NCBI RefSeq assembly: GCF_003201355.1
Contig: NZ_QICL01000001.1
Span: forward strand, 1 to 64,000
Length of the DNA stretch: 64,000 bases
Origin: Indolivaga alginatilytica
GTDB taxonomy: Bacteria; Bacteroidota; Bacteroidia; Bacteroidales; Dysgonomonadaceae
Direction of reading: 5' to 3'
Positions 17,088 through 36,230 of the stretch are shown in pieces; the first letter of the stretch is position 1; every line of letters starts with the position of its first letter. Under the pieces are notes generated by a model, which saw only the letters and a list, made by a program, of their open reading frames with translations, made no database searches and was not told the origin of the DNA. Both the position numbers and the translations under genes were made by a program.

Positions 17088-18596
17088 ATGAAAAATATTC
17101 TGAAATATATATTCATATTCTGCCTTGTTTTCGCAACAGGCAGCTGTAACGATATTCTGGATACAAATCCTATTGATGAAATCGGTGCAGGCGATTTCTA
17201 TAAAAATACGGAAGATATAAATCAATCTGTAACAGCCTGTTACAACGGTATGCAGATAACTCTTAAAAATGAATGGTATCTGACCGAATTACGTTCGGAC
17301 AATACACGCAGCTATGCCAATAATTCAACGGCTGTTACCAGTAAAAACGTCTATGCAATGGATATGTTCCGTGTAGAAACCACCCATCCTCTCAATAAAG
17401 AGTATTGGGAATCTGTTTATCACAATATTGCCAACTGCAATACGGTGCTTAAATATCTTGATGTAGTTTCCGATGCTACAACAAAAGATCAGTTTGAAGG
17501 AGAAGCCCTTTTTATCCGAGCTTATCACTACTTTAATTTAGTGCGACTGTATGGCCCTCTGTTTAAGGTTACAGAGAGAATCACTATCGATGAAGCCAAT
17601 AAAAGTGAAAGAAGTTCTGTTGAAGATATATATGCTTTGATCGAAAACGATTTAAAAACGGCTGTAAGCAAACTACCGGCAGGTTATCCCGACCTTCAAA
17701 AAGGGCGTGTTGATATTTGGGGAGCCAAAGCATTACTTGCCAAAGTATATTTAACCCTCAGCCGTTTTGATGAAGCTAAAGTGTTATTGGCTGAGGTGAA
17801 GGACAATAATAAAGGATACGGGCTCCTACCCTCGTATAAAGATATATTCAGCATTTCAAATGAAATGAATAAGGAAATACTTTTTACGGTAAGGTATAAA
17901 GCCGGCGGTTTAGGATTAGGTTCGCCATTTGCCAGCTCCTTTGCTCCTGCCAATAGTTTCGACTTTGTAATTACAGCAGGCGGCGATGGAAATAACTGCC
18001 CGACCGAAAGTTTACTAAACTCGTACGAAGCAAACGATTCAAGAAAGGATGTAACATTGGCTGCGACATGGGATAATGTGGGAAGTACGGTATATATTGC
18101 TTACCCTAAAAAATACCTGTCGCAGGTTGCAACCAAGTACGATGCAGAAAACGATTGGCCTATCCTTCGTTTTGCCGATGTTCTTTTGATGTTAGGAGAA
18201 GTTGAGAATGAATTAACGGGACCTTCTGCCGGACTTCCTTATCTTAATCAAATCAGAAACCGTGCAGGATTACCTTCATTAACAACGACTGAAATCCCAA
18301 ACAAACTATCGTTCAGAAATGCAATGGAGAAAGAAAGACGCGTGGAATTTGCTCTTGAAAACCAACGCTTCTTTGATCTTCAAAGAACCAATAAATTAGT
18401 TTCGGTGATGGAGAATCATTTCGAAACCGAAGAGTTCAGAAATGCCAATTCAGGAGCAATTATTGCTTATTATACCAATCCGTCGAACGAGTCGTATTTA
18501 CCGGATAGAAAACTACACTCTTGGCAATTGCTGTTACCTATTCCGTTTAGCGTAATATCTGTTGCTACTAATGCAAGTCAAAATCCCGGATATTAA
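17088..18596 (+). CDS. SusD-family surface glycan-binding lipoprotein
   Basis: This 502-residue SusD/RagB-type lipoprotein has a signal peptide with lipobox ending at C20 (FATGSC), followed by NDILDTNPID. TPR-like helices (about 50-240) include the FIRAYHYFNLVRLYG signature near 145, and the C-terminal half has IRNRAGLP and EKERRVEFALENQRFFDLQR blocks. It caps the SusC barrel on the cell surface and delivers alginate oligomers. The gene lies 11 bp after susC. A stem-loop after its stop may separate its expression from the downstream lyases. Confidence 0.93.
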   Translation: MKNILKYIFIFCLVFATGSCNDILDTNPIDEIGAGDFYKNTEDINQSVTACYNGMQITLKNEWYLTELRSDNTRSYANNSTAVTSKNVYAMDMFRVETTHPLNKEYWESVYHNIANCNTVLKYLDVVSDATTKDQFEGEALFIRAYHYFNLVRLYGPLFKVTERITIDEANKSERSSVEDIYALIENDLKTAVSKLPAGYPDLQKGRVDIWGAKALLAKVYLTLSRFDEAKVLLAEVKDNNKGYGLLPSYKDIFSISNEMNKEILFTVRYKAGGLGLGSPFASSFAPANSFDFVITAGGDGNNCPTESLLNSYEANDSRKDVTLAATWDNVGSTVYIAYPKKYLSQVATKYDAENDWPILRFADVLLMLGEVENELTGPSAGLPYLNQIRNRAGLPSLTTTEIPNKLSFRNAMEKERRVEFALENQRFFDLQRTNKLVSVMENHFETEEFRNANSGAIIAYYTNPSNESYLPDRKLHSWQLLLPIPFSVISVATNASQNPGY

Positions 18597-18622
18597 TCCT
18601 GCAGAATATTTATCGTTGCATT

Positions 18623-18657
18623 TTGCAGGTATAACAACTTACAAATTATACCTGCAA
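18623..18657 (+). other. stem-loop between susD and the first PL6 gene
   Basis: TTGCAGGTATAA (18623-18634) pairs perfectly with TTATACCTGCAA (18646-18657) around an 11-nt loop. There is no T-run afterwards, so it is not a standard terminator. It may stabilise the susCD part of the message or attenuate the lyase genes. Confidence 0.55.
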
Positions 18658-18684
18658 GAGCAACAAACAGGCTTAGACCTTAAC
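18643..18684 (-). repeat. dispersed repeat copy upstream of PL6
   Basis: Read on the minus strand this is TTAAGGTCTAAGCCTG followed by TTTGTTGCTCTTGCAGGTAT, matching the family consensus with several changes. It overlaps the right arm of the susD stem-loop. Confidence 0.5.
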
Positions 18685-18693
18685 TGAAAAAAC

Positions 18694-21081: not shown

Positions 21082-21094
21082 AATTTATTCCAAT

Positions 21095-22594
21095 ATGAAA
21101 CAATCGAATAAATGGTTAGATGGGTTGACATCAATTGTTATTTGTTTCGCAATTTTTTTAGGTTGTCAAGGCAGCACAACGGAAGGGGAAATACCTTCTC
21201 CCTCCCCTGTGCCCGCTTTTACTGCTAAAAATTATATCGTTTCCAACATTGCCGAATATAACAGCAAAGTAAAATTGCTCACAGCAGGCGACACCATTAC
21301 TTTAGCTAAAGGTGTATGGAAAGATAGCAAGATCATTTTTTACGGTGAAGGAACAGCAGACAAACCGATAGTTCTCACAGTGGAAGAGTATGGAAAAACA
21401 ACAATCGAAGGATTATCTAATCTCCAAATACATGGGAATTACCTCATCATAGACGGATTGATTTTCACGAACGGACACTCTGCTACGGAGCAGCTTATCG
21501 AGTTCCGTAAAGGATCGTCTCTTACAGCTAATAACTCGATCTTGAAGAATTGCGTGATTGACAACTACAACAGACCTTTATCTACCGATAAGGATGCGTG
21601 GGTTAATTTATGGGGGCGTAACAACAAAGTAGAACATTGTTACTTCGGAACGAAAACCAACTTGGGAGTAACTCTCATTGTGTGGCCTAATGGTGACGGA
21701 CATAACAAAAACTATCACCACATCTCGAACAATTACTTTGCAGGTCGCCCTAATCTCGATGTAAACGGAGCCGAAACCATCCGTATCGGAACCAGTGATT
21801 ATTCGATGGAAATATCGGGAACTATCGTTGAATCCAACTATTTCGAATATTGTAACGGCGAAAGCGAACTTATATCCATCAAATCCTGTGAGAATCGTAT
21901 TATAGATAATACTTTCTTTGAATGCGAAGGCAGTGTTGTTTTACGTCATGGCAACAGAAACGAAATCTCGGGCAATTACTTTATCGGTAACCGTAAAGAA
22001 AATACAGGAGGAGTACGTGTCATAAATCAGGGACACAAGATATTCAACAATTATTTCTACGGATGCAGGGGTGAGACACACCGTGCCCCATTGAATATCA
22101 TGAAAGGCTTGGTCGATTCTCCCATCAACGGCTATCATCAGGTAAAAGACATAGAGATCTGTTTCAATACATGGGTAGATTGTGATACGCCGTGGCTGTT
22201 ATCTTTTGGAGTAAGAGAGCATCAGGATTTATTACCTGTGAATGTAAAAATAGCACACAACATCGTTTATAGTCCCAATGAATCCAATCTGATTGAGGCA
22301 TATGATAATATAGACGGTATCACTTTCGAAAATAATCTTTTAAAAGGAAAGAACGGTTTTGAGAAAGGTACGGGATTCATAGAAGGAAGCATTCAACAAG
22401 AATCAACTACCAATGGATATCCATTAGTTCTCACTGATATAAAGACGCCTGTGATCTCTTATATCTCTACTGATATTGAGGATCGAAAACGTATAGAACT
22501 CACCTCAATCGGAGCCTTCGACATGAATGGCTCCCGATCAACTAAAACACAGGCTGCAAGAAGTAATTCAGGTCCTGTTTGGTATAAAAAGTAA
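21095..22594 (+). CDS. PL6 alginate lyase, lipoprotein, single domain
   Basis: This 499-residue lipoprotein has a lipobox ending at C24 (FLGC) and a proline/serine-rich linker, then a PL6 beta-helix from about residue 45 to the end. The catalytic pair K263 (SIKSCENR) and R284 (VVLRHGNR) and the acidic pair E256/E258 are present. It is clearly a paralogue of the preceding gene's N-terminal domain but lacks the second helix domain. The lipid anchor suggests a surface position beside SusCD, where it could make the first cuts in alginate, leaving the 795-residue enzyme for oligomers. That division of labour is an inference. Confidence 0.92.
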   Translation: MKQSNKWLDGLTSIVICFAIFLGCQGSTTEGEIPSPSPVPAFTAKNYIVSNIAEYNSKVKLLTAGDTITLAKGVWKDSKIIFYGEGTADKPIVLTVEEYGKTTIEGLSNLQIHGNYLIIDGLIFTNGHSATEQLIEFRKGSSLTANNSILKNCVIDNYNRPLSTDKDAWVNLWGRNNKVEHCYFGTKTNLGVTLIVWPNGDGHNKNYHHISNNYFAGRPNLDVNGAETIRIGTSDYSMEISGTIVESNYFEYCNGESELISIKSCENRIIDNTFFECEGSVVLRHGNRNEISGNYFIGNRKENTGGVRVINQGHKIFNNYFYGCRGETHRAPLNIMKGLVDSPINGYHQVKDIEICFNTWVDCDTPWLLSFGVREHQDLLPVNVKIAHNIVYSPNESNLIEAYDNIDGITFENNLLKGKNGFEKGTGFIEGSIQQESTTNGYPLVLTDIKTPVISYISTDIEDRKRIELTSIGAFDMNGSRSTKTQAARSNSGPVWYKK

Positions 22595-22610
22595 TATAAA
22601 AGCAATAAAC

Positions 22611-24077
22611 ATGAAAAATACAAACATCTTTTTTAAAGCGGTTTATATATTAAGCTTCTTTTTGTTAGCATGCACGAGTTGCAACGAAAATCTGGTGGAA
22701 GATGCCACCAATACAAGTGCACCTAATATCACCGATTTTAGTCCAAAATCGGGTAAAGTAGGAACGGAAATTAAAATAACAGGCGAAAATCTGCTAAAAC
22801 TAGACACTATCTATATCGGAGGTGGAATGGCTACCGTAAAATATCTGATTAATTCCAGAGAAGCAGTTGCCACGGTTACTTCGACATCCAAAACAGGTAA
22901 ATTGAAAGTATCCGGAGTATATGGCGCTTTCGAAAGCAGCGATGTATTCACCGTAACTTATGTAGCTCCCGTAATAAATATGTCTACATTTCCTTCCGAA
23001 GGAAAAGCAAACGACAATGTTCTTATAGAAGGTACTGACATGGATGCTGTAATAGAGGTATATTTCGAAACCACAAAAGCAGAGATTATAACTCAAACTA
23101 CTACCGAACTGATTGTAAAAGTTCCGTACTTCGAAGAAAATAATGTGGATGTTTTCTTGTCTTACAATACCGAAAGCGGAGTTAAGAAAACAGGGACTAC
23201 AGGAAAACCATTCTCTCTTGATAAGCCTCAACCCACTGTTGAATCTTACGATAAAAGTGCAGAAGTCGGAGAAACTATTATCATCAAAGGAACTAATCTT
23301 AGTCTGGTAGATAAGGTTATGTTTGATAAGAAAGAAGCCACTATATCACTAAAAGAAGATAAATCAATCAGCGTAATAGTTCCATCGGGTTATACTGCGA
23401 CAAGTAAGGCAGTACTTAAGTTAATCTATTATGTAGATCGTGAATTGATTGTAACTTCTGATTTTCAGGTTATCGTACCACAGATCAACTATTGGCCTGA
23501 TGTTACCCTTTTTGCCAATGATGTAACTACGACCGACAATTTCTTTAATGCCATGAGTGGTAAAATCTATAATCCGTGTAACTATTCGGGCAATGCAAAG
23601 AATGTTTATTTCTACCTGACTATAACAAGCACGAGCTTAGCATTTAATAACCCTCGTAACGGAATCAATCAGATAAAAAACTTCAAATGCGAAAATGTAG
23701 CACTTCCTTCCGATACCGTAGGAACATTAAATGTGAAGTTCCGACGTATGGATCCAACTAATAGTGCAGACAATATTTTTATAGAAAAAGTAAAAAACAA
23801 AACTCTTACTTCTATATCACAAGCCGAGCTTGAGGAAGCCGGAGTTATAAAAGCCGGAACAAGCAGCTTCCGCCATAATGGAGTGCCGGGTGATCCAAAC
23901 AATATGTATTCAGTAGGAGATATAATTTTATTTCAACATTATAATACTACCAATCTGACAAATACAACTGCCCCCATTATCGGCACGGGATTCTTAGAAG
24001 TTGTGAAAATAACATCAAAAGATCCCAAGACAGATAAAACATCATCAGTGACATTTAATTGTTACTTCCAGAAGTAA
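22611..24077 (+). CDS. surface glycan-binding lipoprotein with IPT/TIG repeats
   Basis: I use the ATG at 22611, just after the PL6 stop, rather than earlier in-frame starts inside the lyase gene. The 488-residue product starts with a signal peptide and lipobox (LLAC, C21). Three IPT/TIG-like immunoglobulin domains follow (about 38-112, 115-195 and 200-285; PNITDFSPKSGKVGTEIKI is typical), then a distinct C-terminal beta-rich domain (about 290-488). This is the architecture of surface glycan-binding proteins at the SusE/F position of many loci. It is the last gene of the plus arm, followed by a strong terminator. Confidence 0.85.
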   Translation: MKNTNIFFKAVYILSFFLLACTSCNENLVEDATNTSAPNITDFSPKSGKVGTEIKITGENLLKLDTIYIGGGMATVKYLINSREAVATVTSTSKTGKLKVSGVYGAFESSDVFTVTYVAPVINMSTFPSEGKANDNVLIEGTDMDAVIEVYFETTKAEIITQTTTELIVKVPYFEENNVDVFLSYNTESGVKKTGTTGKPFSLDKPQPTVESYDKSAEVGETIIIKGTNLSLVDKVMFDKKEATISLKEDKSISVIVPSGYTATSKAVLKLIYYVDRELIVTSDFQVIVPQINYWPDVTLFANDVTTTDNFFNAMSGKIYNPCNYSGNAKNVYFYLTITSTSLAFNNPRNGINQIKNFKCENVALPSDTVGTLNVKFRRMDPTNSADNIFIEKVKNKTLTSISQAELEEAGVIKAGTSSFRHNGVPGDPNNMYSVGDIILFQHYNTTNLTNTTAPIIGTGFLEVVKITSKDPKTDKTSSVTFNCYFQK

Positions 24078-24108
24078 GGTTTAAGATCTTAGTATTCACT
24101 AAAAATTC

Positions 24109-24148
24109 ATAAAGAAAGGCAGACTTTTAAAGGTCTGCCTTTCTTTAT
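24109..24148. terminator. strong hairpin between convergent transcription units
   Basis: ATAAAGAAAGGCAGAC (24109-24124) pairs perfectly over 16 bp with GTCTGCCTTTCTTTAT (24133-24148). The T-rich arm serves the plus strand. It lies between the end of the alginate plus arm and the convergent phosphoesterase gene and may serve both. Confidence 0.85.
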
Positions 24149-24192
24149 GATACTATACGAATTTATCGAACAGAAATTTTAGTTTTTCAAAA

Positions 24193-26679
24193 TCAAAACT
24201 TATCCACGGATGAAAAACCGTACACATTACCACCAAAATCTGTTACGAATAAAGTATTGCCCGATATAGCTACAGTGCTGAATACAGGTGCTCCCGTAGC
24301 ATGTTTCCATTCTACCTTTCCTGTATTTACGTTTACTCCATAAAGAATACCATCCGAAGCCCCGAAGAAAATAGTACTGCCTGCCAGCACAGGGCTGGTT
24401 TCTATTGTCGTTACCGGAAAACGTGTATAAGGAGCAGTATAAATAAGTGCAGGAAGTGTGGGTACATTCCATTTCTGTTCTAATGTTTCCCGATCCAAAG
24501 CAATCAGACCATTATCCACAGAACCAAAAACAATTAATTTATCGGTTACTAAAGGGGTAGATGTAACATCTACACTTACTTTCAGTTCTTTACGGCTCAC
24601 TATAGCACCCGTTTTCACATCCATGATAAACAACGATTCGCCGGATATGATGTAAAATAAACCACCATGAATGGCGGGTGAAGCCCCTCTGCTCGATAAA
24701 CCATAGCTTGTATGCTGCCAAAGCAGTTTCCCTGTCTTAGCATCATTACCGTACAAACCCCTCCATTGCGAGCCCGACACCACCACATCGCTTCCCAGAG
24801 TCGGAGTCGATGTAGTACCTTCGCCCTGCCCCCATCCGTTGTTTTTCCAGATTTCGTTTCCGTTTTCGGCATTATAGGCCGCAAAACCTTTCCCTGTACC
24901 TGCAAACACAGTTCCATTGTCGACAGTAAGACCATCTACCAGAGCAGGCAAACCATTTATTCCGAGTTTTTTCTCCCAGCTTAGTTTACCACTTTCAGCA
25001 TCAATTGCGTACAAATACCCTTCCGCATCTTGTGCGTAGATAGTCCCATTGCCGCAAGCAATCGAATTTTTCACAGAGTTGCGTGTATTGTATTTCCATA
25101 ACAATTTTCCTGTCACAGCATCAAGAGCATATACCCCACCCTCACCGCTTAGTTTCTCATCCACTGAACCTACATATACAGTATTATTATAAACTATTGG
25201 TGACGAAAAGAATAAATTAGCTTTAATATTAGTTATCCAGTTCAAATTAAGAGGTAAGCTCAATGTATCTGCAGAAATACCCATACGAGACGAATTATTT
25301 AATAATGTCAGCCAATCCTGATTTGTTTTAACTGAATGCTTCCCATCAGGTTGATAAATAAACGATTCCGAAGTTTTAGCAATCTCTCCGTTATTAAATA
25401 TAACTTTTGCCTCAACAAATACACGCCTGTTCTTAGCCGATGAAGGCAATTGTAATTCGCCCGACCAATTCCAGTCTGTATTCTGAGTAAGAGCAACATC
25501 ACCCGCTTGTTTTTTATCGTCTATTGTACAAGTATAAGATACACTTCGAGCCGGCGATACGGCACTGTATGTATTTACGGAAACAGGCACTTTCCCATTT
25601 GCATTTATAGAAGCCCTTTCATTTCCGATAGATGCTATCTGAATAGAATTATTTATATATGTATAACGTAACTGAGTTTTCACATCACCCTTTTTATCTA
25701 CCGATACTATCCGATATGCCGATGTAGAATGATCTATACCACCTTTATCCAGATTAGCGGTAGAGATAGCCAAAACATTGCCTTGTCTACGAACAAAATT
25801 GATATGCCAGTGCCCATATAACCAAGCCTTGAGGTTATGCTCATTCAAATCGACATACTCCGTATCATTTATTCCGAAAATAAACTTGTCATCATACGAT
25901 AACAAATCGTGATTAAATACAATTACAGGGGTATTCTTGTTAACATGAGCCAGATCGTTTTTCAACCAACGGTATACATCTTCTTTGGTATATCCGGGCT
26001 TATAGTCTCCTCCTGCCATAGGAGTTACTACATAGTGTACATTGCCTGCTTCGAACGAAAAATAGACAGGTCCGTAGATACTTTCGAATAATTCTTCTCC
26101 ATATTTACCTTTCACTAAATCGTGATTACCGATACTATAAAACACGGGACAATTCATATTGCTCGTATTCATTAAACCGATATGTGCTTTCAGACCATTT
26201 TCATAACAGATATCTCCCGTATGCATTATAAATGCTGTTTTTTCATCTGCCACATAATCACGTATATTGTTTGCCCAACGTTCCATATCCACCGAATTGT
26301 GTATCTCGGTATCTGCTATGTGAACAAAATTATGGCTGCCATCGGCATCTATTTTTCCGGTTAATACATCTAATCCGAAATCGTAACTTTTGTTTTTGTC
26401 CGAGATAGCCCTATAATGAGCATTATCCGTTTTGTATCCCGAAGGTGTAGTTATAAAGACGAAGCGTTCTTTTGCATGTCCCGGTAATTCGAATGTGCCG
26501 TCTACGGCTGTTACAACCACATTTAAACCATCTGAAACCATTACATTTTTAAGCAGTTTCTCACCTTTGTCGTAAACCCCGTTTTTATTGGCATCTACAT
26601 ACACTCTTCCTGTATGCACAGCAAAAGTGCTGACCAATGGTAAGACTGTAGAGATGAAGATTAAAATTAGTTTTTTCAT
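24193..26679 (-). CDS. secreted calcineurin-like phosphoesterase fused to a PQQ-like beta-propeller
   Basis: This is an 828-residue protein with a signal peptide (about 1-20). An N-terminal beta-sandwich of the MetallophosN type (about 22-105) precedes a metallophosphoesterase domain (about 115-335) with D123/H127 (DTEIH), GD 155-156, GNHD 184-187, H257 (FNHD) and GHWH 289-292, the complete two-metal set. A C-terminal calcineurin domain (about 340-450) follows, then a PQQ_2-type propeller (about 470-828) with repeated YALDAVTGKLLWK-like blades. It should hydrolyse phosphate mono- or diesters outside the cytoplasm. It lies downstream of a nuclease-like gene and SusC/D on the same strand. The substrate is unknown. 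Confidence 0.88.
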   Translation of the reverse strand: MKKLILIFISTVLPLVSTFAVHTGRVYVDANKNGVYDKGEKLLKNVMVSDGLNVVVTAVDGTFELPGHAKERFVFITTPSGYKTDNAHYRAISDKNKSYDFGLDVLTGKIDADGSHNFVHIADTEIHNSVDMERWANNIRDYVADEKTAFIMHTGDICYENGLKAHIGLMNTSNMNCPVFYSIGNHDLVKGKYGEELFESIYGPVYFSFEAGNVHYVVTPMAGGDYKPGYTKEDVYRWLKNDLAHVNKNTPVIVFNHDLLSYDDKFIFGINDTEYVDLNEHNLKAWLYGHWHINFVRRQGNVLAISTANLDKGGIDHSTSAYRIVSVDKKGDVKTQLRYTYINNSIQIASIGNERASINANGKVPVSVNTYSAVSPARSVSYTCTIDDKKQAGDVALTQNTDWNWSGELQLPSSAKNRRVFVEAKVIFNNGEIAKTSESFIYQPDGKHSVKTNQDWLTLLNNSSRMGISADTLSLPLNLNWITNIKANLFFSSPIVYNNTVYVGSVDEKLSGEGGVYALDAVTGKLLWKYNTRNSVKNSIACGNGTIYAQDAEGYLYAIDAESGKLSWEKKLGINGLPALVDGLTVDNGTVFAGTGKGFAAYNAENGNEIWKNNGWGQGEGTTSTPTLGSDVVVSGSQWRGLYGNDAKTGKLLWQHTSYGLSSRGASPAIHGGLFYIISGESLFIMDVKTGAIVSRKELKVSVDVTSTPLVTDKLIVFGSVDNGLIALDRETLEQKWNVPTLPALIYTAPYTRFPVTTIETSPVLAGSTIFFGASDGILYGVNVNTGKVEWKHATGAPVFSTVAISGNTLFVTDFGGNVYGFSSVDKF

Positions 26680-26982
26680 TTAAGTATTTATTTCTTTGAT
26701 TAATACATTTCTATATTGGAATTGTCTATAAAGGTGACCTTTTTTTACTGACGCACCCTCTCGGGTTTGTCTTTCATTTTGCCTTGATGCAAAACGAAAC
26801 AAAAGATCAAGACTATGCCTCTTTGCACGACCCGATACGTGCTCGAAAGCGAAAACAAAAAAACACATTTGACTTTGACCCCTTTTTGTTTTTTACGCTT
26901 TCTTCTCACATCGGGTTCCCCGTGCAACCGCCAAGGTCGGTAGCCTGACGGGCATAAACAAGCCAAGATTTAAACTGCAACC
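26680..26982. repeat. GC-richer intergenic island, probable dispersed Bacteroidetes repeat
   Basis: About 26745-26955 is much richer in G+C than its surroundings and contains TTGATGCAAAACGAAACAAA followed by AGATCAAG, text I associate with recurrent intergenic sequences in Bacteroidetes genomes. An uninterrupted plus-strand frame crosses it without a good start, and short minus-strand frames look spurious. It lies between the two phosphoesterase genes. Confidence 0.45.
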
Positions 26983-28587
26983 TTATTTATTCTGATTTAA
27001 ATAGAAATAAGTAATAACGCTACCATGATCCGAAGGCCAGAAAGGCGGATGATGATCGAGAGTTTTACTCCAATAAGGCTGTATATTTTTCCCTTTATAG
27101 TAGATATAATCTATTCGATCACGTATACAGGTAGGTTTTACAGACGAATTACTTATGAGCGGAGACCATGTAAAACCGGGATCGGTTAACGGATTCAAAT
27201 TGATTTCTCTGTAACTATCCTTATATTTTGCGTTTTCCATTTCTAGAGAAGCAGGCCACTTTATAATTCTGCCCTTGTGAATAACTTTAGTTGCATCGTT
27301 CCAATCGAGGTGAGAGCCGCTATTGAAATCACCTACCATAAATACAGGCACATTATCTGCATTTAGCGTATAGGGTTCTATCTGTTTTAATATTGCTTTT
27401 ATTTCTTTGCCTCTTCTATTGTGCTCTTCTTTCATAAAATCAGTAAGATTCACTTTATCATCAATCAAATCACACATATTAGGCAGATAGTCGAGCCAGA
27501 TATCAAAAAATGCCATTTTATTACCATTCCCTAGATTAAGAACAGCACCTCCCGAATTGAAACTCTTGTACACTTTTATAGTTTCATCTATCGGGTATTT
27601 ACTCATAATACTCAGGTTAGAACTGATTAAATAGAAATAATACCCTAGAGAATCGGCTATTACTTCTCCCGAACCATATGTTTCGATAAGACCTATCACA
27701 TCTGCATTCTCTTTCTTCAATACATTTATCACACGTTCCAATCCAACATGTTCACCAAAACGATGCCCTCCATGCCAGATATTCCACACCTGAACTTTTA
27801 ATTCATTAGGAGAAATAACTTTTACATCCTTTTCTTTAGTTGATACAAATTCACTGTATAAAGATTTGACCGTAGATGATGTAAGAGTGCCATTGTACAT
27901 TTTCACCTCATCTATCATACCATTGAAAGCTGTCCATTCCCTGCGTGACGACCAATCGTTATATTCGTCCGACCCTCCGATTATTGTTGCCAGTTCACTG
28001 CGTGCAGTCGAAAGTCCTTCAACATTGTAAATACCAACATTCTTACCATCATAATAAAACCAAACCTCTTTCTTATCCAAATCTACACTTATTGCAATCT
28101 GATGCCAGTTTCCATCATTTATGGGCTGACGATCAGCCGTAGGGGCATAGTTATAGGTCGATTTACCATCGCTTATATTGAAAAACCAAGCACCTCTGTC
28201 ATTAGTGCCCAGCATCCATCCTGCTTTGTTTTTATCTTCGACTTTCTTATTACTCATTATGGGTGTTCCCTGACGGGCATTCTTCTTCGTCTTTACCCAT
28301 AGCACCATGGCGAAACTCTTATCATATGGCAAGGTCTCATTTGCATCCAACGCAACAGGTAAACGAACGGCGACATCACTCGTAAGATCTAAACACAATC
28401 CTTTGAGACCTTTGCTAAATGTGGGCACAAAAGCCATTCGGGAATCTTCCGCTTCATTCAGATTCTCTTTCACTTTAGAGAAGTCGACCGATCCGTTATC
28501 AAATGATTTATAAATAAACGACTCTTGGGCAGATGTCAATCCGACGAGAAATGAAACAATCAGCATGGTTATGCATCTTTTTTTCAT
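26983..28587 (-). CDS. secreted LamG plus endonuclease/exonuclease/phosphatase protein
   Basis: I start at the ATG ending at 28587, which gives a signal peptide (MKKRCITMLIV, cleaved near residue 20); an earlier in-frame start adds 11 unlikely residues. The 534-residue protein has a concanavalin/LamG-type domain (about 45-250) and a C-terminal endonuclease/exonuclease/phosphatase domain (about 270-534). Visible motifs of the latter are the metal-binding glutamate in GLIET, GDFNSGSHLDW, DRIDYIY and the catalytic SDHGSV. Members cleave phosphodiesters, such as DNA, sphingomyelin or inositol phosphates. The lectin-like domain suggests a carbohydrate-linked substrate. It follows the susD gene and precedes the propeller phosphoesterase. 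Confidence 0.85.
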   Translation of the reverse strand: MKKRCITMLIVSFLVGLTSAQESFIYKSFDNGSVDFSKVKENLNEAEDSRMAFVPTFSKGLKGLCLDLTSDVAVRLPVALDANETLPYDKSFAMVLWVKTKKNARQGTPIMSNKKVEDKNKAGWMLGTNDRGAWFFNISDGKSTYNYAPTADRQPINDGNWHQIAISVDLDKKEVWFYYDGKNVGIYNVEGLSTARSELATIIGGSDEYNDWSSRREWTAFNGMIDEVKMYNGTLTSSTVKSLYSEFVSTKEKDVKVISPNELKVQVWNIWHGGHRFGEHVGLERVINVLKKENADVIGLIETYGSGEVIADSLGYYFYLISSNLSIMSKYPIDETIKVYKSFNSGGAVLNLGNGNKMAFFDIWLDYLPNMCDLIDDKVNLTDFMKEEHNRRGKEIKAILKQIEPYTLNADNVPVFMVGDFNSGSHLDWNDATKVIHKGRIIKWPASLEMENAKYKDSYREINLNPLTDPGFTWSPLISNSSVKPTCIRDRIDYIYYKGKNIQPYWSKTLDHHPPFWPSDHGSVITYFYLNQNK

Positions 28588-28618
28588 ATTATTATATTTT
28601 ATGGTTATCGCATTTATC

Positions 28619-28660
28619 AAATTAGACTAGAAGTTTCGCCCGATTCTTCTAGTCTAATTT
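28619..28660 (-). other. 15-bp stem-loop in the leader of the nuclease-like gene
   Basis: AAATTAGACTAGAAG and CTTCTAGTCTAATTT pair perfectly over 15 bp around a 12-nt loop. It lies between a -7 box (28675-28682) and the start codon at 28587. It could be a weak terminator for the upstream susD transcript or a leader structure. Confidence 0.6.
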
Positions 28661-28674
28661 TACATTCAATTATC

Positions 28675-28682
28675 CAAATATA
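28675..28682 (-). promoter_or_regulatory. -7 promoter box upstream of the nuclease-like gene
   Basis: TATATTTG on the minus strand matches TAnnTTTG exactly. It would start transcription near 28669, about 80 nt before the start codon. No clear -33 box. Confidence 0.4.
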
Positions 28683-28778
28683 GGACAATTCTCCCCATTT
28701 TTTCAATTACCCTCTGTTCAATGTAGCAATATTAAGTAATGGGAAATATTTATTGCTACACTTTATGACTATAATAAT

Positions 28779-28820
28779 TTTCGGTTATTGTACTTGCCAA
28801 AGCAGTAAAAAGGTCTTGGA
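28779..28820 (-). repeat. dispersed repeat copy after susD
   Basis: On the minus strand: GTCCAAGACCTTTT followed by TACTGCTTTGGCAAGTACAA. The tail is one of the best matches to the copy at 36111. It begins within about 20 bp of the susD stop. Confidence 0.7.
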
Positions 28821-28822
28821 CA

Positions 28823-30622
28823 TTACTTCCAATATTTGTTTTGAACCAGATTACTGTTTATCAGAATATCCTGATCGCTTATCGGTTTGTAATAATATTT
28901 AGGCTCTTGGAATGTAAATCTATTCTTATGAGCTGTAATTTTCACATAACCGTGATCTCCTTCCGATAAATAGAAAGTATTGCCATCCAAGATATAAATA
29001 GTCAATTTGTATTTTTGCTTATCATCTTCCGGTATCTTATCGGCATCTGCCTGTGTCTTAACGACTGCAATATCAGGTAAACCATCGCCTGTAATATCAT
29101 GATATCCCAATCCGCTGATATAGATTCCTTCCGATTCTTTAGCCATCAGTGTACCCACTTTCCAGCGATAGATATCATTAGCTCTGAATCCTTCGCAAGC
29201 CAATTCTATTCTTCGTTCGCGTCTTACTTCAAGAATAGCTCCTCTTTGAGTTCCTGATACATTCGGATAACGGTTCGCCTGAACAGGATCAATAGCAGAC
29301 AATACATTCGATAGTATCATATGGGGCATCCCTACTCTATCACGCAGCAGATTGATTGTAATATCTAAATCGCTTTGAGTCAGTTCACCCAATTCTGCAC
29401 GAGCTTCTGCATAAACAAGCAATACTTCAGCCAATCTGATTAGCGGCAGAGCGGTATAAGACTTGTTCCACGATATTTGATCGTATGTCAACGGATCATA
29501 TTTTACCTGTACATAACCACCTATACCAAATTTTGCTTTGGTGGGTATCGTAACACCGGCACGAATATGTCCCGGTTTCATGAAGGTATAACCCAGTCTG
29601 GGATCACGGTTGGTAAATATATCGTTTACACTCATTTTATCATAGCCGGGTACTTGCTGAAATGTTTTGGTTGTATTGCCATTTATTACCAGATAATCCT
29701 CCATCAAGTCTCTTGTTAAGCCATAATAATTGTTATACATTACCTGAACATTATGAAAGCTGTTTAAATCTTGTTTATATTGTTCATACCATATAATCTC
29801 AGGATTGGTTGATAAATCGAGGCTTACAAACAATGCCTGATAAGGCTCTAATGTACCTTTAGCCTTGTACAACGAAAATTGATTGTTTTCAATAAAAATT
29901 TTCTTTGCGGCATCACGTGCTAATTCAAGAAAACGCTTATGGTCTGTCAATTCCAATTCCGCATGATACTTTCTGTAAGTACCCTCCTCCAATGCTATGC
30001 GAGCCTGCAATGCCAATGCTGCCCACTTCGTTACACGTGTTTTAGAAGAAAAATTTCCGACAGATTGAATATTTTCCACAGCAAATGCCAAATCTTCGAG
30101 AATCTTATCCACCACTACAGCTCTGCTGTCTTGTGTTTTATATAATTCTTCCGTATCACCGGTCTGAAGTGTTTTTGAATACCAAGGCACATCCGAAAAA
30201 GTCCGAACTTTGCCATAGTAATGATAAGCTCTGAATAGACGGGCAATGCCAACATAATGATTAATTTCTGTTTGATCGCCTACGGCTGTCACATGATTTT
30301 CGATCAGGAAATTTATTTTCCTCAGTTTCTCCCAGTTCCACGTACCTTCGGTTTGGGGTTTCACATCACCCCTCATCATCTTGTACATACTCTCGTCCTC
30401 ATTCGAATTTTCGTTATCACTCACCTGATCACCATACGAAGAAGTTATAATATCACCATATAAACCATTCAGATATGTATTGAGATCCTGAGGATTCTTA
30501 AAGAAGTTCTTGGGACTGATTTCGGATTCCGGGTAACGCTCCATAAATTCATCATTACATGAGACAAAAAATATTCCTATAAGCAATGATGCTATTATTA
30601 CTATTTTATTTTTAAGGTTCAT
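28823..30622 (-). CDS. SusD-family lipoprotein of the phosphoesterase locus
   Basis: This 599-residue SusD/RagB lipoprotein has a lipobox ending at C22 (FFVSC), followed by NDEFMERYPESEISP, a typical SusD start. The RLFRAYHYYGKVRTF block near residue 130 is the expected TPR signature, and EVRRERRIELACEGFRANDIYRWK near 470 is the conserved C-terminal block. It is about 100 residues longer than the alginate SusD. It forms a pair with the SusC 11 bp upstream. The ligand is unknown; the linked phosphoesterases suggest a phosphorylated substrate. Confidence 0.93.
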   Translation of the reverse strand: MNLKNKIVIIASLLIGIFFVSCNDEFMERYPESEISPKNFFKNPQDLNTYLNGLYGDIITSSYGDQVSDNENSNEDESMYKMMRGDVKPQTEGTWNWEKLRKINFLIENHVTAVGDQTEINHYVGIARLFRAYHYYGKVRTFSDVPWYSKTLQTGDTEELYKTQDSRAVVVDKILEDLAFAVENIQSVGNFSSKTRVTKWAALALQARIALEEGTYRKYHAELELTDHKRFLELARDAAKKIFIENNQFSLYKAKGTLEPYQALFVSLDLSTNPEIIWYEQYKQDLNSFHNVQVMYNNYYGLTRDLMEDYLVINGNTTKTFQQVPGYDKMSVNDIFTNRDPRLGYTFMKPGHIRAGVTIPTKAKFGIGGYVQVKYDPLTYDQISWNKSYTALPLIRLAEVLLVYAEARAELGELTQSDLDITINLLRDRVGMPHMILSNVLSAIDPVQANRYPNVSGTQRGAILEVRRERRIELACEGFRANDIYRWKVGTLMAKESEGIYISGLGYHDITGDGLPDIAVVKTQADADKIPEDDKQKYKLTIYILDGNTFYLSEGDHGYVKITAHKNRFTFQEPKYYYKPISDQDILINSNLVQNKYWK

Positions 30623-30633
30623 AGTTGTAGATT

Positions 30634-33600
30634 TTAGAATGAAACATTAAGACCAAAAGAGTACGATCTTTGGAATGGATACATTTGTCCATTAAGACCT
30701 TCGGGGTCTGCCTTGTAATGACTATCCAAGCCACTCAGTTCAGCCAGATTCTCACCGGAGAAAAATACTCGTACACGACTGAGACCTGCTTTCTTCACCC
30801 AATATTGCGGCAATGTATATCCTATCGTTATATTTTTGAGCCTCATATATGCCGCACTTTGAAGATATTTAGTTTGCGGAGCAGCTAACTCCCTACCACC
30901 TTCAGCAACATAAGATTTCCTTCTGGGAAAATAAGCATTTGTATTTTCAGGAGTCCAATAATCCAGATTCTGCTTACTCACATTAGTCCAGGGTTGTGAA
31001 TACACTCCCCAGAATAACAAGTCGCTACCACCCGGATAATAATCTCTCTTACCTACACCTTGCAAGAAGAAACTAAAATCGATATTATTCCAATCGGCAC
31101 TACCTAAAAAGCTAAAGTTGTAGCGAGGAGTTGTATTTCCAATCCTATAATAATCGCCCGGATTACTGAGAGTCCAATCTCCCCAGTCCACTTTTTCATC
31201 TCCATTCTTATCCCAGAATTTTAAATCTCCCGGTTCTATAGAATGCGTTCCCGGATAAGCTGATACCGTAGTCTGATCGGCATGGTTCTTTATTTCCTCT
31301 TCCGATTGGAAATAACCCAGAGTTTTCATACCCCATATCTCACCAAGCTTTTGTCCTACATAAAATTTATCAAGACTTCCCGTAGGATTGTCAAACTTAG
31401 TAACTGTAGTTTCGTTATCAGACAATACGAAATTCATATTGTATACGAAAGGTTTTCCTTTCACCTGAAACTGATCTTTCCATTTGATTGTCAACTCCCA
31501 TCCATTAGTCCGCATATCCACTGCATTCTCTAAAGGTTGAGTTGAAACCCCCAATACGTTGGGTAGTTTTTTTCCCGCAGCAAGCATATCTTTAACATCT
31601 CTCCGATATATATCGAAAACCGTAGTTAATCTGTTATTCAAGAAATTTACGTCTACACCAAAGTTCAAAGTCTGTACAGTTTCCCATGTCAGAGACGAGG
31701 ATACCAGATTAGGAACCTTCACATATACAGGTTGTTTACCATCAAGTAACAAAGTAGTTTGTCCTTTCGACATAATCGGGATATAAGGATAGTTGGAAAC
31801 ATCCTGATTACCCAAACTTCCATAAGACGCACGGAACTTAAGGCTACTAACAACAGGAGATATAAAGTTCATAAAACTTTCCTGAGAAGCTACCCAAGCT
31901 GCTGACACGGAAGGATTAAAAGCAAAGCGATCATCTTTAGGGAAACGCGATGTACCATCATAACGACCATTGGTTTCTATTATATATTTATTATCGAATA
32001 TATAATTAACTCTGTAGAACAATCCGCGTAAAGCATATTCGCTACTACTTGAACTTACCCGCTGATCGCCTGTTCCTAAGTTAATGCTTGGCAGGTTATC
32101 GGATATTAAATCTTTTACTTCTCCGTTAAATCTTCGGTATTTATACTCTTCCTGATTAAAACCTCCTACCACATTCACAAAATGCTTCTTATTAAATGTT
32201 TTATTGAAATTTGTGAAAACATCAAACACCAGATTGTCGGTATGATCCGATCTTTCACCGGCAGAAGATGTTGTATTGTGGTATTTCATTTGCATATCAG
32301 GACCTTCGCGATATCCAATAGGCAGATAAGCATATTGTTCGCTGTATTCGCTTCTATTCAGGGCGAAACTGCCGTTTACCGTCCACACATCCTTTACTAA
32401 CTCATATTTAGTAGAAAACTGGGTAGTAAATATCGAGTTAAGCGTATTTCTACGTCCTCCATCTCTCATACGTCCCAATAAATCAGCTCCGGTACTAGTC
32501 CACGTACCATCGGGATTGGTTGGTATATCCAATGTGTTCTTACGGGAAATATTCCAGTAATAATCACTCCCCAAATAACTGGGTGCATCATAATCGGCCG
32601 TAGAATAACTGGTATTATTACCTATAGTCCAACGATCATTTACATGAAAGTTCAGCTTACTTCTTAAATTATATCTGTTAAATTTATCATTATCCTGTTT
32701 CAACATACCGTTTTGCAGGAAGTAATTACCGGAGAAAAAATAAGACACCAATTTTGTAGCTCCCGATATATCTATACCATGATTAGTTGCAAATCCGGCA
32801 TCTTTATAAGCTTCGTCATACCAGTTTGTATTACCGAAATACTCCCATTGTCCGTTAGTATTCACGAAATAAGGAGAAATTGATGGATCTGCAGAACGTT
32901 TTTTTGCATATGCAATTGAATTTTCGTCGTACAGATTATACCAAGGGTATGAAAAAATATTTCTCATATCCACCACAGTAGCAGGATCTGTAACAACATC
33001 GGGTCTGTTAGTTAGTCTGTTAAATGTAAAATTGTTGTTATAATTTACCTTCACTTTTTCGCTTTCGCCATTCTTGGTTGTTACCAATATAACTCCAAAT
33101 GCAGCCCGCGAACCGTAGATCGCTGCGGATGCCGCATCTTTCAGCACCGATATATTCTCAATATCCGCAGAATTCATATTATTTAATTCCTGAATGGAAG
33201 ATACGATACCATCTATCACTATCAGAGGGCTTCTTTCATTCGCACTTTCCAAAGCGGTAGCTCCACGAATATTAAACTTGGGAGTGCTGTTAGCCTGTCC
33301 GCTAGGCATCGTAATATTAAGGTTTCCCACAGCACCTTGCAACCCTTGTCCTATATTTACAAGAGGACGGTCTTCCAGTACTTTTTTAGAGATTCCTTCT
33401 ACTGCACCCGAAAGGTTGGCTTTTTTCTGAATACCGTACCCGACAACCACAACTTCATCCAAAAGCTCTGTATTTTCGGCTAATGATATATTTAAATTGG
33501 TTTTACCGGCTACCGGCACTGTAATTTCTTTGTATCCGATATACGAAACAACTAGTTCTCCCTTATCAGGGACATTTAATGAAAAATGACCATCTATATC

Positions 33601-34095
33601 GGTAACAGTACCAATAGTAGAACTTCCTTTCAGCTTCACCGAAACTCCTATGAGCGGATCGCCGGACGCATCAGAAATAGTACCTGCAACCATTTTAGAT
33701 TGTTGGGGAGACTTAGAAATTATATCCTCTTCTGTTTTTCCTTGGGGGATAAGTATTATTTTTGTATTATTTAGTTTAAAAGTAAATCCGGGTAGGATTT
33801 GAGATAAAGCAGTGTTAATATCCTTATCTTCGATTTTTACATCGATTTTCTTTCCACTATCAACATCAGCATCATTGTAAAATAAGGTGTATTTACTTTG
33901 AGCTTCTATCTCTTTGAGGGCTTGTTTCACACTTATCTGTTTCTTATTGATGGACACTGTGCCTTGTTGGGCAAAAGCACTTGTGAAAGACTGAATCACC
34001 AATAATATGAAAATCAGATAAAATGCTCTTGTGTTTTTTAACTTTTTTTGAGTTATTGGAGAGCATACGTTCTTCTTTGAATCTATTTTATTCAT
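30634..34095 (-). CDS. SusC-family TonB-dependent transducer with STN domain
   Basis: I take the ATG ending at 34095; the frame extends 16 residues further without a plausible start. The 1153-residue protein has a long signal region (about 1-43), an N-terminal STN domain (about 45-115) that contacts an anti-sigma factor, a carboxypeptidase D regulatory-like domain (about 135-215), a plug with LDEVVVVGYG near 216, and a barrel ending NVSF. STN-bearing SusC proteins signal to FecR-type anti-sigma factors. The genes for FecR and an ECF sigma lie directly upstream, so ligand uptake should switch on the locus. Confidence 0.93.
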   Translation of the reverse strand: MNKIDSKKNVCSPITQKKLKNTRAFYLIFILLVIQSFTSAFAQQGTVSINKKQISVKQALKEIEAQSKYTLFYNDADVDSGKKIDVKIEDKDINTALSQILPGFTFKLNNTKIILIPQGKTEEDIISKSPQQSKMVAGTISDASGDPLIGVSVKLKGSSTIGTVTDIDGHFSLNVPDKGELVVSYIGYKEITVPVAGKTNLNISLAENTELLDEVVVVGYGIQKKANLSGAVEGISKKVLEDRPLVNIGQGLQGAVGNLNITMPSGQANSTPKFNIRGATALESANERSPLIVIDGIVSSIQELNNMNSADIENISVLKDAASAAIYGSRAAFGVILVTTKNGESEKVKVNYNNNFTFNRLTNRPDVVTDPATVVDMRNIFSYPWYNLYDENSIAYAKKRSADPSISPYFVNTNGQWEYFGNTNWYDEAYKDAGFATNHGIDISGATKLVSYFFSGNYFLQNGMLKQDNDKFNRYNLRSKLNFHVNDRWTIGNNTSYSTADYDAPSYLGSDYYWNISRKNTLDIPTNPDGTWTSTGADLLGRMRDGGRRNTLNSIFTTQFSTKYELVKDVWTVNGSFALNRSEYSEQYAYLPIGYREGPDMQMKYHNTTSSAGERSDHTDNLVFDVFTNFNKTFNKKHFVNVVGGFNQEEYKYRRFNGEVKDLISDNLPSINLGTGDQRVSSSSSEYALRGLFYRVNYIFDNKYIIETNGRYDGTSRFPKDDRFAFNPSVSAAWVASQESFMNFISPVVSSLKFRASYGSLGNQDVSNYPYIPIMSKGQTTLLLDGKQPVYVKVPNLVSSSLTWETVQTLNFGVDVNFLNNRLTTVFDIYRRDVKDMLAAGKKLPNVLGVSTQPLENAVDMRTNGWELTIKWKDQFQVKGKPFVYNMNFVLSDNETTVTKFDNPTGSLDKFYVGQKLGEIWGMKTLGYFQSEEEIKNHADQTTVSAYPGTHSIEPGDLKFWDKNGDEKVDWGDWTLSNPGDYYRIGNTTPRYNFSFLGSADWNNIDFSFFLQGVGKRDYYPGGSDLLFWGVYSQPWTNVSKQNLDYWTPENTNAYFPRRKSYVAEGGRELAAPQTKYLQSAAYMRLKNITIGYTLPQYWVKKAGLSRVRVFFSGENLAELSGLDSHYKADPEGLNGQMYPFQRSYSFGLNVSF

Positions 34096-34164
34096 AGATT
34101 TGTATTGATTTAAGTTGGTTACTAAAATACGGCACTTAATCATTGTGCCTAAATAATTTAAATC

Positions 34165-34211
34165 ATCCGAATAGGTGAGCGTTGCGAGCGTTCACCTATT
34201 TTTATTCGGAT
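34165..34211. other. nested inverted repeats in the susC leader
   Basis: An outer pair ATCCGAATA (34165-34173) / TATTCGGAT (34203-34211) encloses an inner pair AATAGGTGAGCG / CGTTCACCTATT around TTGCGAG. On the plus strand a TATTTTT run follows the inner stem. On the minus strand, the direction of fecR and susC, there is no T-run, so this is more likely a leader structure or operator than a terminator of fecR. Confidence 0.55.
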
Positions 34212-34275
34212 ATCTCACTTAGTCTTAGATTGTAGGTTAAAATTAAAGAGTGGTTTAAAAATTAATAAATTTGTT

Positions 34276-35274
34276 TTATTTTCCTCCTTTCTTTGTTATG
34301 TAAACTTTATATCCTTCATGTTTATATCTTATCGGGGCTATTTCTTCCATAGCTTCCAATATTTCATCCAATGATTCGCGACATACAGTAAACGACATGT
34401 TTGTAGATTCTGCAATATCTTTAGAGCATTCTATATCTACTCCATACCATTTATTCAAATTAATAATAATGTTAGCTAAGGATAAATTATCGAATACAAG
34501 TTTTTCATTTATCCAGCTAGTGTAATAATTAGTGTTTACGATTTCACACTTCAGTGAATCTCCTTTTTTTAAATATAAGACCCGCTCATTAGGCACAATG
34601 GCCATTTCTTTAAAATGCGAGCTTGTTATATTTACGGCTCCTTCGGTTAGTATAGTTTCTACGTAATCGTTTTTATCGTAATTCTGTACAAGGAAACTTG
34701 TTCCTAACACTCTCACTTTTATATCATCTGCATTTACCCAAAAAGGTGCAGCAGAATCCTTTTTCACTTCAAAATATGCCTCTCCCTTTAGGTGTACCTC
34801 GCGCTTGTCTTCTGCAAAATGTTCCGGATACTCCAAAACACTGTGAGCATTCAACCAGACTACAGTACTATCGGGCAGTATAAATTTACCTTTACTATCC
34901 GCTGTCAGTAAACGGTTTATTATTCGGATCTCATTTTCCTTATCATCTTTATATAAAAAATATACTACATTAAAGAGAATCAGAAATATGGCTGCCACTT
35001 GTAATATTTTGTAAAGAAGAGGTAATTTTACTTTTTGTACCTCTCTAATCGAGGACTTTTCTGTACCTATTCTTTCTCTGAATCTAGCCAGTGCCAATTC
35101 GGTTTCCAAATCATCTTCCAACTCTGCTTTACTCATAAGCCAGAGACTTGATAAGCTTGAAAATAACTCCTTATTTTCCTCCGATACTTCCAACCAAGCT
35201 AACAATTCTTCCTCTTCTTCCCGGGTACAGGATTTATCTAAATATTTTACTATTAGCTCTTCGTGCTTCAACAT
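34276..35274 (-). CDS. FecR-family anti-sigma factor
   Basis: This 332-residue protein has an N-terminal cytoplasmic anti-sigma region (about 1-85) and one transmembrane helix at about 89-108 (ILQVAAIFLILFNVVYFLY). A periplasmic FecR domain follows (about 125-220; GKFILPDSTVVWLNAHSVLEYP is typical), then a C-terminal DUF4974-type domain (about 255-328; DNLSLANIIINLNKWYGV) that interacts with the STN domain of SusC. It holds the ECF sigma inactive until the transporter signals. It lies 77 bp after the sigma gene and 180 bp before susC on the same strand. Confidence 0.93.
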   Translation of the reverse strand: MLKHEELIVKYLDKSCTREEEEELLAWLEVSEENKELFSSLSSLWLMSKAELEDDLETELALARFRERIGTEKSSIREVQKVKLPLLYKILQVAAIFLILFNVVYFLYKDDKENEIRIINRLLTADSKGKFILPDSTVVWLNAHSVLEYPEHFAEDKREVHLKGEAYFEVKKDSAAPFWVNADDIKVRVLGTSFLVQNYDKNDYVETILTEGAVNITSSHFKEMAIVPNERVLYLKKGDSLKCEIVNTNYYTSWINEKLVFDNLSLANIIINLNKWYGVDIECSKDIAESTNMSFTVCRESLDEILEAMEEIAPIRYKHEGYKVYITKKGGK

Positions 35275-35351
35275 GAACTTGTGATCTTAATGGTATATTT
35301 ATAATACAAATTGGAAATAAAATACCCCCCCTCGAATAATAAAAAAATTAT

Positions 35352-35927
35352 TCAATATGATATTTTTAAAATAAAGAGGATAATAATAAAGAGAAGAAAG
35401 CCGCTTTTATACAAATGCGTTCTTAGTTCAAAAAGGGCTTTAGTTATCTGTTTTTCAACACTTTTAACGGAAATCCCCAGAAGTTCGGCAATTTCTCGAT
35501 TCTTTAAATCTTTGTTTCGGCTTAATAAAAAAATTCTTTTGCACTGCGGTGGTAAAGTTTCTATATGCACTCGTATTATTTCCTGAAGTTCTTTAACATG
35601 CAATACCTCATCCTGACTATCGGCTCCATCAGTATGAGATAAAAAGGTATCATTTTCAATTGAACTTTGACTTGTAGTAGCCTTGCTATTTAAATGATTT
35701 AAGCATTTGTTGTATAAGGTTTTATACAAATAAGCTTTTACAGTTCCATCCAACTCAATATAATCCCGTCTGTTCCACAACTCAACGAAGGTATCCTGAA
35801 CAAGATCTTCAACAACATCAAGATCTCTGACAAAACGTAATGCATATATTTTTAGAGATTTATAATTATTCCTAAATAAGTCTTCAACCCGATCTTTGGC
35901 TGACTCTTCAATATGCTCTTCCATCAT
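35352..35927 (-). CDS. ECF sigma factor with C-terminal hydrophobic tail
   Basis: This 191-residue sigma-70 factor of the ECF class has region 2 at about 15-80 (FVRDLDVVEDLVQDTFVELW) and region 4 at about 110-170 (LPPQCKRIFLLSRNKDLKNR, then EIAELLGISVKSVEKQI). The last 18 residues (SGFLLFIIILFILKISY) form a hydrophobic helix that could anchor the protein in the inner membrane. That tail lies outside the two sigma domains. It leads the fecR/susC/susD unit and should direct its transcription on release from FecR. Confidence 0.92.
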   Translation of the reverse strand: MMEEHIEESAKDRVEDLFRNNYKSLKIYALRFVRDLDVVEDLVQDTFVELWNRRDYIELDGTVKAYLYKTLYNKCLNHLNSKATTSQSSIENDTFLSHTDGADSQDEVLHVKELQEIIRVHIETLPPQCKRIFLLSRNKDLKNREIAELLGISVKSVEKQITKALFELRTHLYKSGFLLFIIILFILKISY

Positions 35928-36110
35928 AATAATCTATAATACAACAACATCAGTAATTAAGCAAGAACTTATCTGCGTCAAGCAGACTAATCCCTCAGTA
36001 AGAGTATAATATTTGATTTTTGAATCAAATGCCAAAATACATAAAATAATCGGTAGATACTTCAAGAAATAAAAAAAGTTAAACAATAAAATCATATGTT
36101 TAATAAATCA

Positions 36111-36150
36111 GGGTCTCAGACCTATTTATTGCTTTGGCAAGCATAAGCAT
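36111..36150 (+). repeat. dispersed repeat copy upstream of the rhomboid gene
   Basis: GGGTCTCAGACCTATTTATT followed by GCTTTGGCAAGCATAAG. Core and tail closely match the copy at 28779, including a following AATAnCGGTTAT-like extension. Confidence 0.7.
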
Positions 36151-36230
36151 AAATAGCGGTTATCAATAAATAATATTACATTAAATACCTACTGTTACTT
36201 AGGTATGCTTTATCAATACAAATAATATGC

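Follow-up and report, generated by a model that had tools for sequence, protein, structure and literature searches.

The window analysed here, a stretch of 64,000 nucleotides from Indolivaga alginatilytica (Bacteroidales, Dysgonomonadaceae; contig NZ_QICL01000001.1, positions 1 to 64,000), contains a SusC/SusD-type (SusCD) uptake locus whose enzymes are phosphoesterases. Six genes, all on the minus strand, occupy positions 24193-35927 and encode an ECF sigma factor, a FecR-type anti-sigma factor, SusC, SusD, a LamG-linked EEP-type enzyme (LamG-EEP), and a calcineurin-type phosphoesterase fused to a PQQ-like propeller (table 1). A first-pass annotation had named these six proteins, and all of them were recovered at the positions it gave. 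The curated cut-offs were exceeded by all main domains except STN (PF07660, SusC residues 85-133), which scored 19.8 bits where 28.4 were required. The STN-SusC of that annotation thus stands as a SusC (TIGR04056, 871 bits) with a weak STN domain, while the ECF sigma factor and FecR are clear. Our domain scan found no glycoside hydrolase (GH), polysaccharide lyase (PL), carbohydrate esterase, or sulfatase among the six genes. The annotation had likewise described the interval as free of hydrolases of this kind, lyases, and sulfatases, and this was borne out; an alginate-type polysaccharide utilization locus (PUL) with two PL6 enzymes ends on the opposite strand at a distance of 115 bp. The adjacent SusC and SusD genes (TIGR04056; PF07980/PF14322) are the defining mark of Sus-like PULs. 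Considering that no carbohydrate-active enzyme (CAZyme) occurs among the six genes, the locus was not filed as a polysaccharide locus. Directly after SusD stand the EEP and calcineurin-type genes, so that SusCD is found beside a phosphodiesterase/phosphomonoesterase in place of CAZymes, as defines the phosphate utilization system (PUS) type of locus. The SusC and SusD genes are 11 bp apart, which is the sole tight gap. SusD and EEP are 238 bp apart, with a conserved hairpin in between, and a dispersed repeat fills the 303 bp from EEP to the phosphoesterase; with gaps this wide, a single transcript is therefore an assumption. The LamG-EEP gene likely starts at ATG 28587 rather than at TTG 28620 (open reading frame 26983-28620).

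Table 1. Features of the phosphoesterase locus and the two hairpins in the window.
Feature	Position	Strand	Basis
ECF sigma factor, 191 aa, presumed locus activator	35352..35927	-	TIGR02985 155 bits (cut-off 126); PF04542, PF08281
FecR-type anti-sigma factor, 332 aa	34276..35274	-	PF04773 + PF16344
SusC-type TonB-dependent outer-membrane transporter, 1169 aa	30634..34143	-	TIGR04056 871 bits, TIGR04057; PF07715, PF13715
SusD-type lipoprotein, 599 aa, presumed ligand-binding lid	28823..30622	-	PF07980 + PF14322; lipobox-like FVSC near N-terminus
RNA hairpin between SusD and EEP genes, just upstream of EEP start	28619..28660	-	20-nt arms, 90% complementary
LamG-EEP enzyme	26983..28587	-	PF13385 + PF03372
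Calcineurin-type phosphoesterase (MetallophosN + Metallophos) fused to PQQ_2/BamB-like propeller	24193..26679	-	PF16371 + PF00149 + PF13360
Hairpin terminator between phosphoesterase locus and alginate PUL	24107..24150	.	18-pair stem, T tail; -28.4 kcal/mol, z -9.6

The LamG-EEP protein matched PF03372 with 60.8 bits (cut-off 24.5). Among 17 homologues the catalytic residues N280, E313, D431, N433, D531, and H532 were invariant and D504 was nearly so; the profile and the residues (N, E, DxN, D, DH) together place the protein in the EEP superfamily. The string GDFNxxSHLDW was a family signature of the same homologues (n = 17). The phosphoesterase scored 41.6 bits with PF00149 (cut-off 21.5) and retained the motifs GD 155-156, GNHD 184-187, H257, and GHWH 289-292. 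Its motif I reads D123-T-E125 instead of the canonical D-x-H, as it does in six close homologues, hinting at an altered metal site, and its calcineurin-like superfamily label follows from the profile only; its structure model (predicted local distance difference test, pLDDT, 46) was too poor for a structural search. Both enzymes are 90-91% identical to proteins of Dysgonomonas sp. HGC4, which marks the window genome as Dysgonomonas-type, and the ratios of nonsynonymous to synonymous substitutions relative to HGC4 (0.07 for EEP and 0.06 for the phosphoesterase) indicated strong purifying selection. Both begin with a signal peptide that lacks a lipobox and are therefore likely periplasmic. Because neither hydrolase has a lipobox, the arrangement speaks for a small ligand that is imported intact and not for a polymer that is cut at the surface. 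The phosphate polymer proposed by the first-pass annotation is accordingly not borne out, and an imported small diester seems to fit the design of the system better.

The structure model of the EEP protein showed the EEP fold at middling confidence (pLDDT 61.5). Its matches were tied at Z 15.5-16.8 and included neutral sphingomyelinase (16.8), nocturnin, a Bacteroides EEP, inositol 5-phosphatases, and TDP2. The fold and the metal/catalytic residues are common to neutral sphingomyelinase, nocturnin, inositol 5-phosphatase, and TDP2, but identity to them is only about 10-18%, and the GDFNxxSHLDW signature belongs to the family of the window enzyme. A PDB search with the single sequence P0002 gave no match, and a profile search returned mainly general EEP nucleases. 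Since the top matches were tied and the model was middling, we rejected the fold as a guide to the substrate.

The SusD lineage is associated with phosphoester enzymes. Test loci were picked by the similarity of their SusD to the window SusD (33-54% identity); three of them had already come up in the EEP search but qualify by SusD as well. The controls were 40 other SusD loci of the same genomes, which were the better-scoring PF07980 matches and not a random draw. Among the first two genes downstream of SusD that run in its direction, Pfam identified 22 EEP, 12 Metallophos, and 4 NAGPA proteins in the test set (90 proteins), compared with 2 Metallophos and at most 2 EEP proteins (EEP falling outside the 25 families listed) in the controls (70 proteins), where GH43, GH92, GH76, and GH2 were present. 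The enrichment of EEP plus Metallophos downstream of SusD was strong (Fisher p = 1.3e-6). An EEP, calcineurin-type, glycerophosphodiester phosphodiesterase (GDPD), or NAGPA gene was found at most six genes away in 47 of 61 Bacteroidales test loci and in 9 of 40 controls. After SusDs more than 60% identical were collapsed, the counts were 25 of 32 for the test loci and 9 of 39 for the controls (p = 4e-6). The local hidden Markov model profiles used for this were seeded partly from the test loci, a mild bias of which the Pfam count is free. Outside Bacteroidales, in a set gathered after the prediction, 14 of 16 loci had a phosphoester gene at most six genes away (p = 1e-5), some of these loci sharing a genome. 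In a SusD tree made by a quick method with no bootstrap, the window fell into a clade of 59 rows (support 94), 47 of which had a phosphoester gene nearby, and within it into a subclade of 17 (support 98), with such a gene in 13. The phospho label changed 19 times on this tree versus 34 times in shuffles, and none of 500 shuffles was as low.

The first-pass annotation had suggested a search for the same gene order in other genomes, and similar loci do exist in which phosphoester genes follow ECF-FecR-SusC-SusD. This order, continued by EEP, is retained in genomes G166 and G109 (SusC 45%, SusD 42-43%), together with GH20, GH2, and a GH123-NAGPA protein. At L093 the four genes are followed directly by a phosphoesterase-propeller protein (59%), at L096 by a type I phosphodiesterase and a phosphoesterase-propeller protein (57%), and at L094 by EEP and one further protein. 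Two phosphoesterases follow SusD at L085, where ECF would lie beyond the contig end, and G011 has the order SusD (49%)-EEP (41%)-phosphoesterase-phosphoesterase (58%). EEP and calcineurin genes are adjacent in L039 and L101, and two genomes from the family of the window genome carry both domains fused in one protein of 616-618 aa directly after SusD. A sister arrangement recurs in L090, L097, and L100, in which a calcineurin-type protein (MetallophosN-Metallophos-MetallophosC in L100) precedes SusC and SusD, and a protein of about 500-670 aa with a weak BACON match or no Pfam match follows. LamG-EEP homologues that lack SusCD were seen in another Bacteroidales family (L031 9127-11345, L032 9158-11319, L033 9589-11325); in L031 and L032 the gene stands directly before an ECF-FecR pair, suggesting the same enzyme in a different use.

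Several sister loci also encode genes of glycerol-phosphate metabolism. L098 and L100 each have a GlpT above the equivalog cut-off, L091 has a GlpD-like (glycerol-3-phosphate dehydrogenase-like) protein, and L087 and L100 have GDPDs. In L204 a MIP channel (GlpF-type), an FGGY kinase (GlpK-type), ECF-FecR-SusC-SusD, PhoD, and GDPD lie side by side, and in L201 GDPD, alkaline phosphatase, SusCD, and a phosphoesterase occur together. These gene sets point to glycerol-phosphate-type products in the members that carry them. Based on gene content, residue conservation, the linkage of SusD to phosphoester genes, the EEP-phosphoesterase fusions, and the glycerol-phosphate genes of sister loci, all of them sequence-level evidence, we consider that the locus probably serves SusCD-type uptake and degradation of small organic phosphodiesters, most likely of the glycerophosphodiester type or a lipid or glycan head group, and not of a polysaccharide.

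The recurrence of glycerol-phosphate genes also bears on the scavenging of nucleic acids or nucleotides, in which EEP would be the nuclease and the calcineurin-type protein the nucleotidase. The EEP superfamily includes DNases and TDP2, which were high in the Foldseek ranking, the EEP of L101 is weakly similar to exonuclease III, and nucleic acids were proposed beside lipid head groups for PUS I of Flavobacterium (Lidbury et al., PMC8115612). Nevertheless, nucleobase, nucleoside, and ribose genes were absent among the annotated genes beside the window locus, and deoC/ribokinase-like genes were noticed by eye near one relative only (L086), on the opposite strand. The recurring neighbours are glycerol-phosphate genes instead, and neither enzyme appears to be surface-anchored for cutting polymeric DNA. 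We regard this explanation as very unlikely.

Returning to the uptake of small phosphodiesters, several observations weigh against it. HGC4 keeps the EEP-phosphoesterase pair, but its ECF-FecR-SusC-SusD genes are missing, so the enzymes do not depend on this SusCD; about 150 unrelated bp (L038 733-886) replace the window block 28710-36202, with a clean switch between the rhomboid and EEP genes. The closest EEP homologues after HGC4 adjoin unrelated SusCDs (L011, L027), which means that modules shuffle, and homologues of the propeller phosphoesterase occur without SusCD in four further genomes. The main counter-evidence is that the nearest SusD (L083, 54%) is accompanied by GH3 and GH65, with no phosphoesterase within six genes. 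In addition, L029 and L030, whose SusCD and EEP are orthologous to those of the window, carry GH20, GH2, and GH123-NAGPA (L030 by matching order). Neighbours pointing to an ordinary glycan, which the first-pass annotation had said would refute its proposal, were therefore found in part, beside the nearest SusD and some others. Moreover, the window locus has no glycerol-phosphate catabolic genes, which were seen in sister loci only, and the window genome has no GlpT above the cut-off and two GDPDs that are unlinked to the locus; the ligand class for this genome is therefore taken, with due caution, from relatives. A close EEP was found only in the window genome and HGC4 of six Dysgonomonas genomes searched. 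Together with the block missing in HGC4, the GHs of L083, and the propeller phosphoesterases that lack SusCD, this means that the unit is modular and patchy.

Two readings draw on these same observations. The GH3 and GH65 genes of L083 and the separation of the enzymes from SusCD in HGC4 would be expected if this were a glycan PUL of the ordinary kind, with the phosphoesterases as passengers and the substrate set by SusCD as in the nearest relative. We think this quite unlikely, considering that the SusD lineage is strongly linked to phosphoester enzymes in and outside Bacteroidales relative to same-genome controls and that the neighbouring alginate PUL is a separate unit. On the other hand, since L029/L030 carry GH20, GH2, and GH123-NAGPA, the ligand could be a phosphorylated glycan or glycolipid (phosphomannan-like, GPI-like, or a glycosyl-inositol-phospholipid), from which EEP would remove the phosphate-linked head group while GHs encoded elsewhere finish the sugar. 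The same EEP subfamily occurs with these enzymes in L029, with GH5 (PF18564 C-terminal domain), GH29, PhoD, and GH20 in L028, and with GH84 in L012; the phosphodiester glycosidase NAGPA turns up repeatedly downstream of SusD in this lineage (4 of 90 proteins), and neutral sphingomyelinase is among the model matches, tied with nocturnin and inositol 5-phosphatases. The operon itself has no GH, and the SusD lineage is mostly accompanied by phosphoester enzymes, in some cases by glycerol-phosphate genes, and not by GHs, so a phosphorylated glycan seems to us unlikely, though worth keeping in mind. The view of the first-pass annotation that SusCD logic is here applied to phosphodiester material is thus favoured by the linkage in Bacteroidales (47 of 61) and beyond (14 of 16, against 9 of 40 controls), by the fusions, and by the sister glycerol-phosphate genes, while the GHs beside the nearest SusD speak against it.

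If small phosphodiesters are indeed the ligand, the SusD lipoprotein would bind them at the cell surface and SusC would import them with TonB energy, as in their families. The loaded SusC might signal to FecR, freeing the ECF sigma factor and switching on the locus, though the STN domain is weak. In the periplasm EEP would cut the phosphodiester, as its conserved catalytic residues suggest, and the calcineurin-type enzyme could finish the reaction as a phosphomonoesterase or act as a second diesterase, its propeller perhaps being a binding or scaffold module. Phosphate and the alcohol would then enter the cell. Relatives with GlpT, GlpK-type, or GlpD-like genes would use glycerol-3-phosphate or glycerol as carbon, and the window genome, given its lack of GlpT above the cut-off, probably dephosphorylates the ligand fully outside the inner membrane.

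The alginate-type locus (8621-24077) is convergent with the phosphoesterase locus. It encodes SusC, SusD, two PL6-type lyases, and a TIG-domain protein on the plus strand, and on the minus strand a GntR/FCD regulator, a major facilitator superfamily transporter, and a lyase that combines alginate-lyase and heparinase-type domains. Different genes follow the phosphoesterase in HGC4 (L038), and no alginate enzyme was seen there, so we treated the alginate PUL as an independent neighbour. Alginate was accordingly rejected as a substrate: the PL6 locus is convergent, separated by a terminator, and not beside the EEP pair in HGC4. The hairpin upstream of EEP is also conserved in HGC4, where it differs by G-U and other base substitutions (fold z -4.2, compared with -4.8 in the window), and is possibly an mRNA processing or stability element. 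The EEP-phosphoesterase gap (26705-26975) is a copy of a dispersed repeat of about 210-220 bp with a highly conserved core. The window genome has 34 near-full copies, and the identity of the others to the copy in this gap is 82-92%. Dysgonomonas G133 has at least 40 matches, two more genomes have 16-17, and HGC4 has one, which is not at the EEP-phosphoesterase site. A MITE-like element (miniature inverted-repeat transposable element) and a non-coding RNA are candidates; no Rfam family matched. The Bacteroidales-type promoter pattern had no match in the locus, and sigma-70-like sites there were no more frequent than by chance. A 12-bp inverted TGCTTTGGCAAG at 28793-28804 and 36130-36141, near both ends of the block absent in HGC4, may be a chance match, given its short length.

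Calling the system undescribed, as the first-pass annotation did, was too strong. Low-phosphate-induced SusCD complexes (PusCD) with periplasmic phosphodiesterases were described in Flavobacterium in 2020 (Lidbury et al., PMC8115612). PUS I comprises an ECF sigma factor and PusCD1 together with two phosphodiesterases predicted to be periplasmic, of which one is PF00149, and its proposed targets are lipid head groups and nucleic acids; PusD was reported to be polyphyletic, with six forms in Flavobacterium (PMC8115612). By gene content, PUS I of Flavobacterium johnsoniae resembles the window locus in having SusCD with an ECF sigma factor, two predicted phosphodiesterases including PF00149, and no CAZymes. 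It differs in that its low-phosphate induction was shown and its second enzyme is PF16670, whereas the window locus has LamG-EEP, the phosphoesterase-propeller, and FecR. Classical ECF/FecR Sus-like PULs share the order ECF-FecR-SusC-SusD-enzymes, TonB import, and periplasmic enzymes, but the window unit has phosphoesterases and no CAZyme. Compared with the uptake systems for glycerophosphodiesters and glycerol-3-phosphate (GlpQ/GDPD, GlpT, PhoD), relatives of the window locus encode GDPD, PhoD, GlpT, and GlpK-/GlpF-type proteins beside SusCD, while the window locus lacks these genes and has EEP, a calcineurin-type enzyme, and TonB-dependent outer-membrane import instead. In Bacteroides thetaiotaomicron the SusC/SusD pair BT4724-25 lies close to the glycerophosphodiester phosphodiesterase BT4727 in an expression table (PMC10434189), a likeness of gene neighbourhood alone. 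In the open-licence papers searched we found no account of the breadth of this SusD lineage or of its glycerol-phosphate links, and nothing joining SusD with teichoic acid and phosphodiester/glycerol-3-phosphate or with phosphodiester glycosidase. Therefore, although SusCD for phosphate compounds is already known, novelty may lie in how broad this SusD lineage is and in its links to glycerol phosphate.

More tentatively, and with rather more doubt than confidence, we propose that a broad SusC/SusD lineage of Bacteroidota, reaching beyond Flavobacterium and soil, imports whole glycerophosphodiester-type molecules, such as deacylated phospholipids and teichoic-acid fragments, and passes them through periplasmic EEP, calcineurin-type, GDPD, or PhoD enzymes to glycerol-phosphate catabolism as a source of carbon and phosphate. 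SusCD is the signature of glycan feeding in gut and soil, and its substrate is usually guessed from the neighbouring CAZymes. If the proposal is true, a SusD lineage that predicts phosphodiesters would re-annotate many CAZyme-free loci and extend the PusCD idea to Bacteroidales. It would also offer a direct test route for the bacterial use of phospholipids from dead cells or teichoic acids from Gram-positive bacteria.

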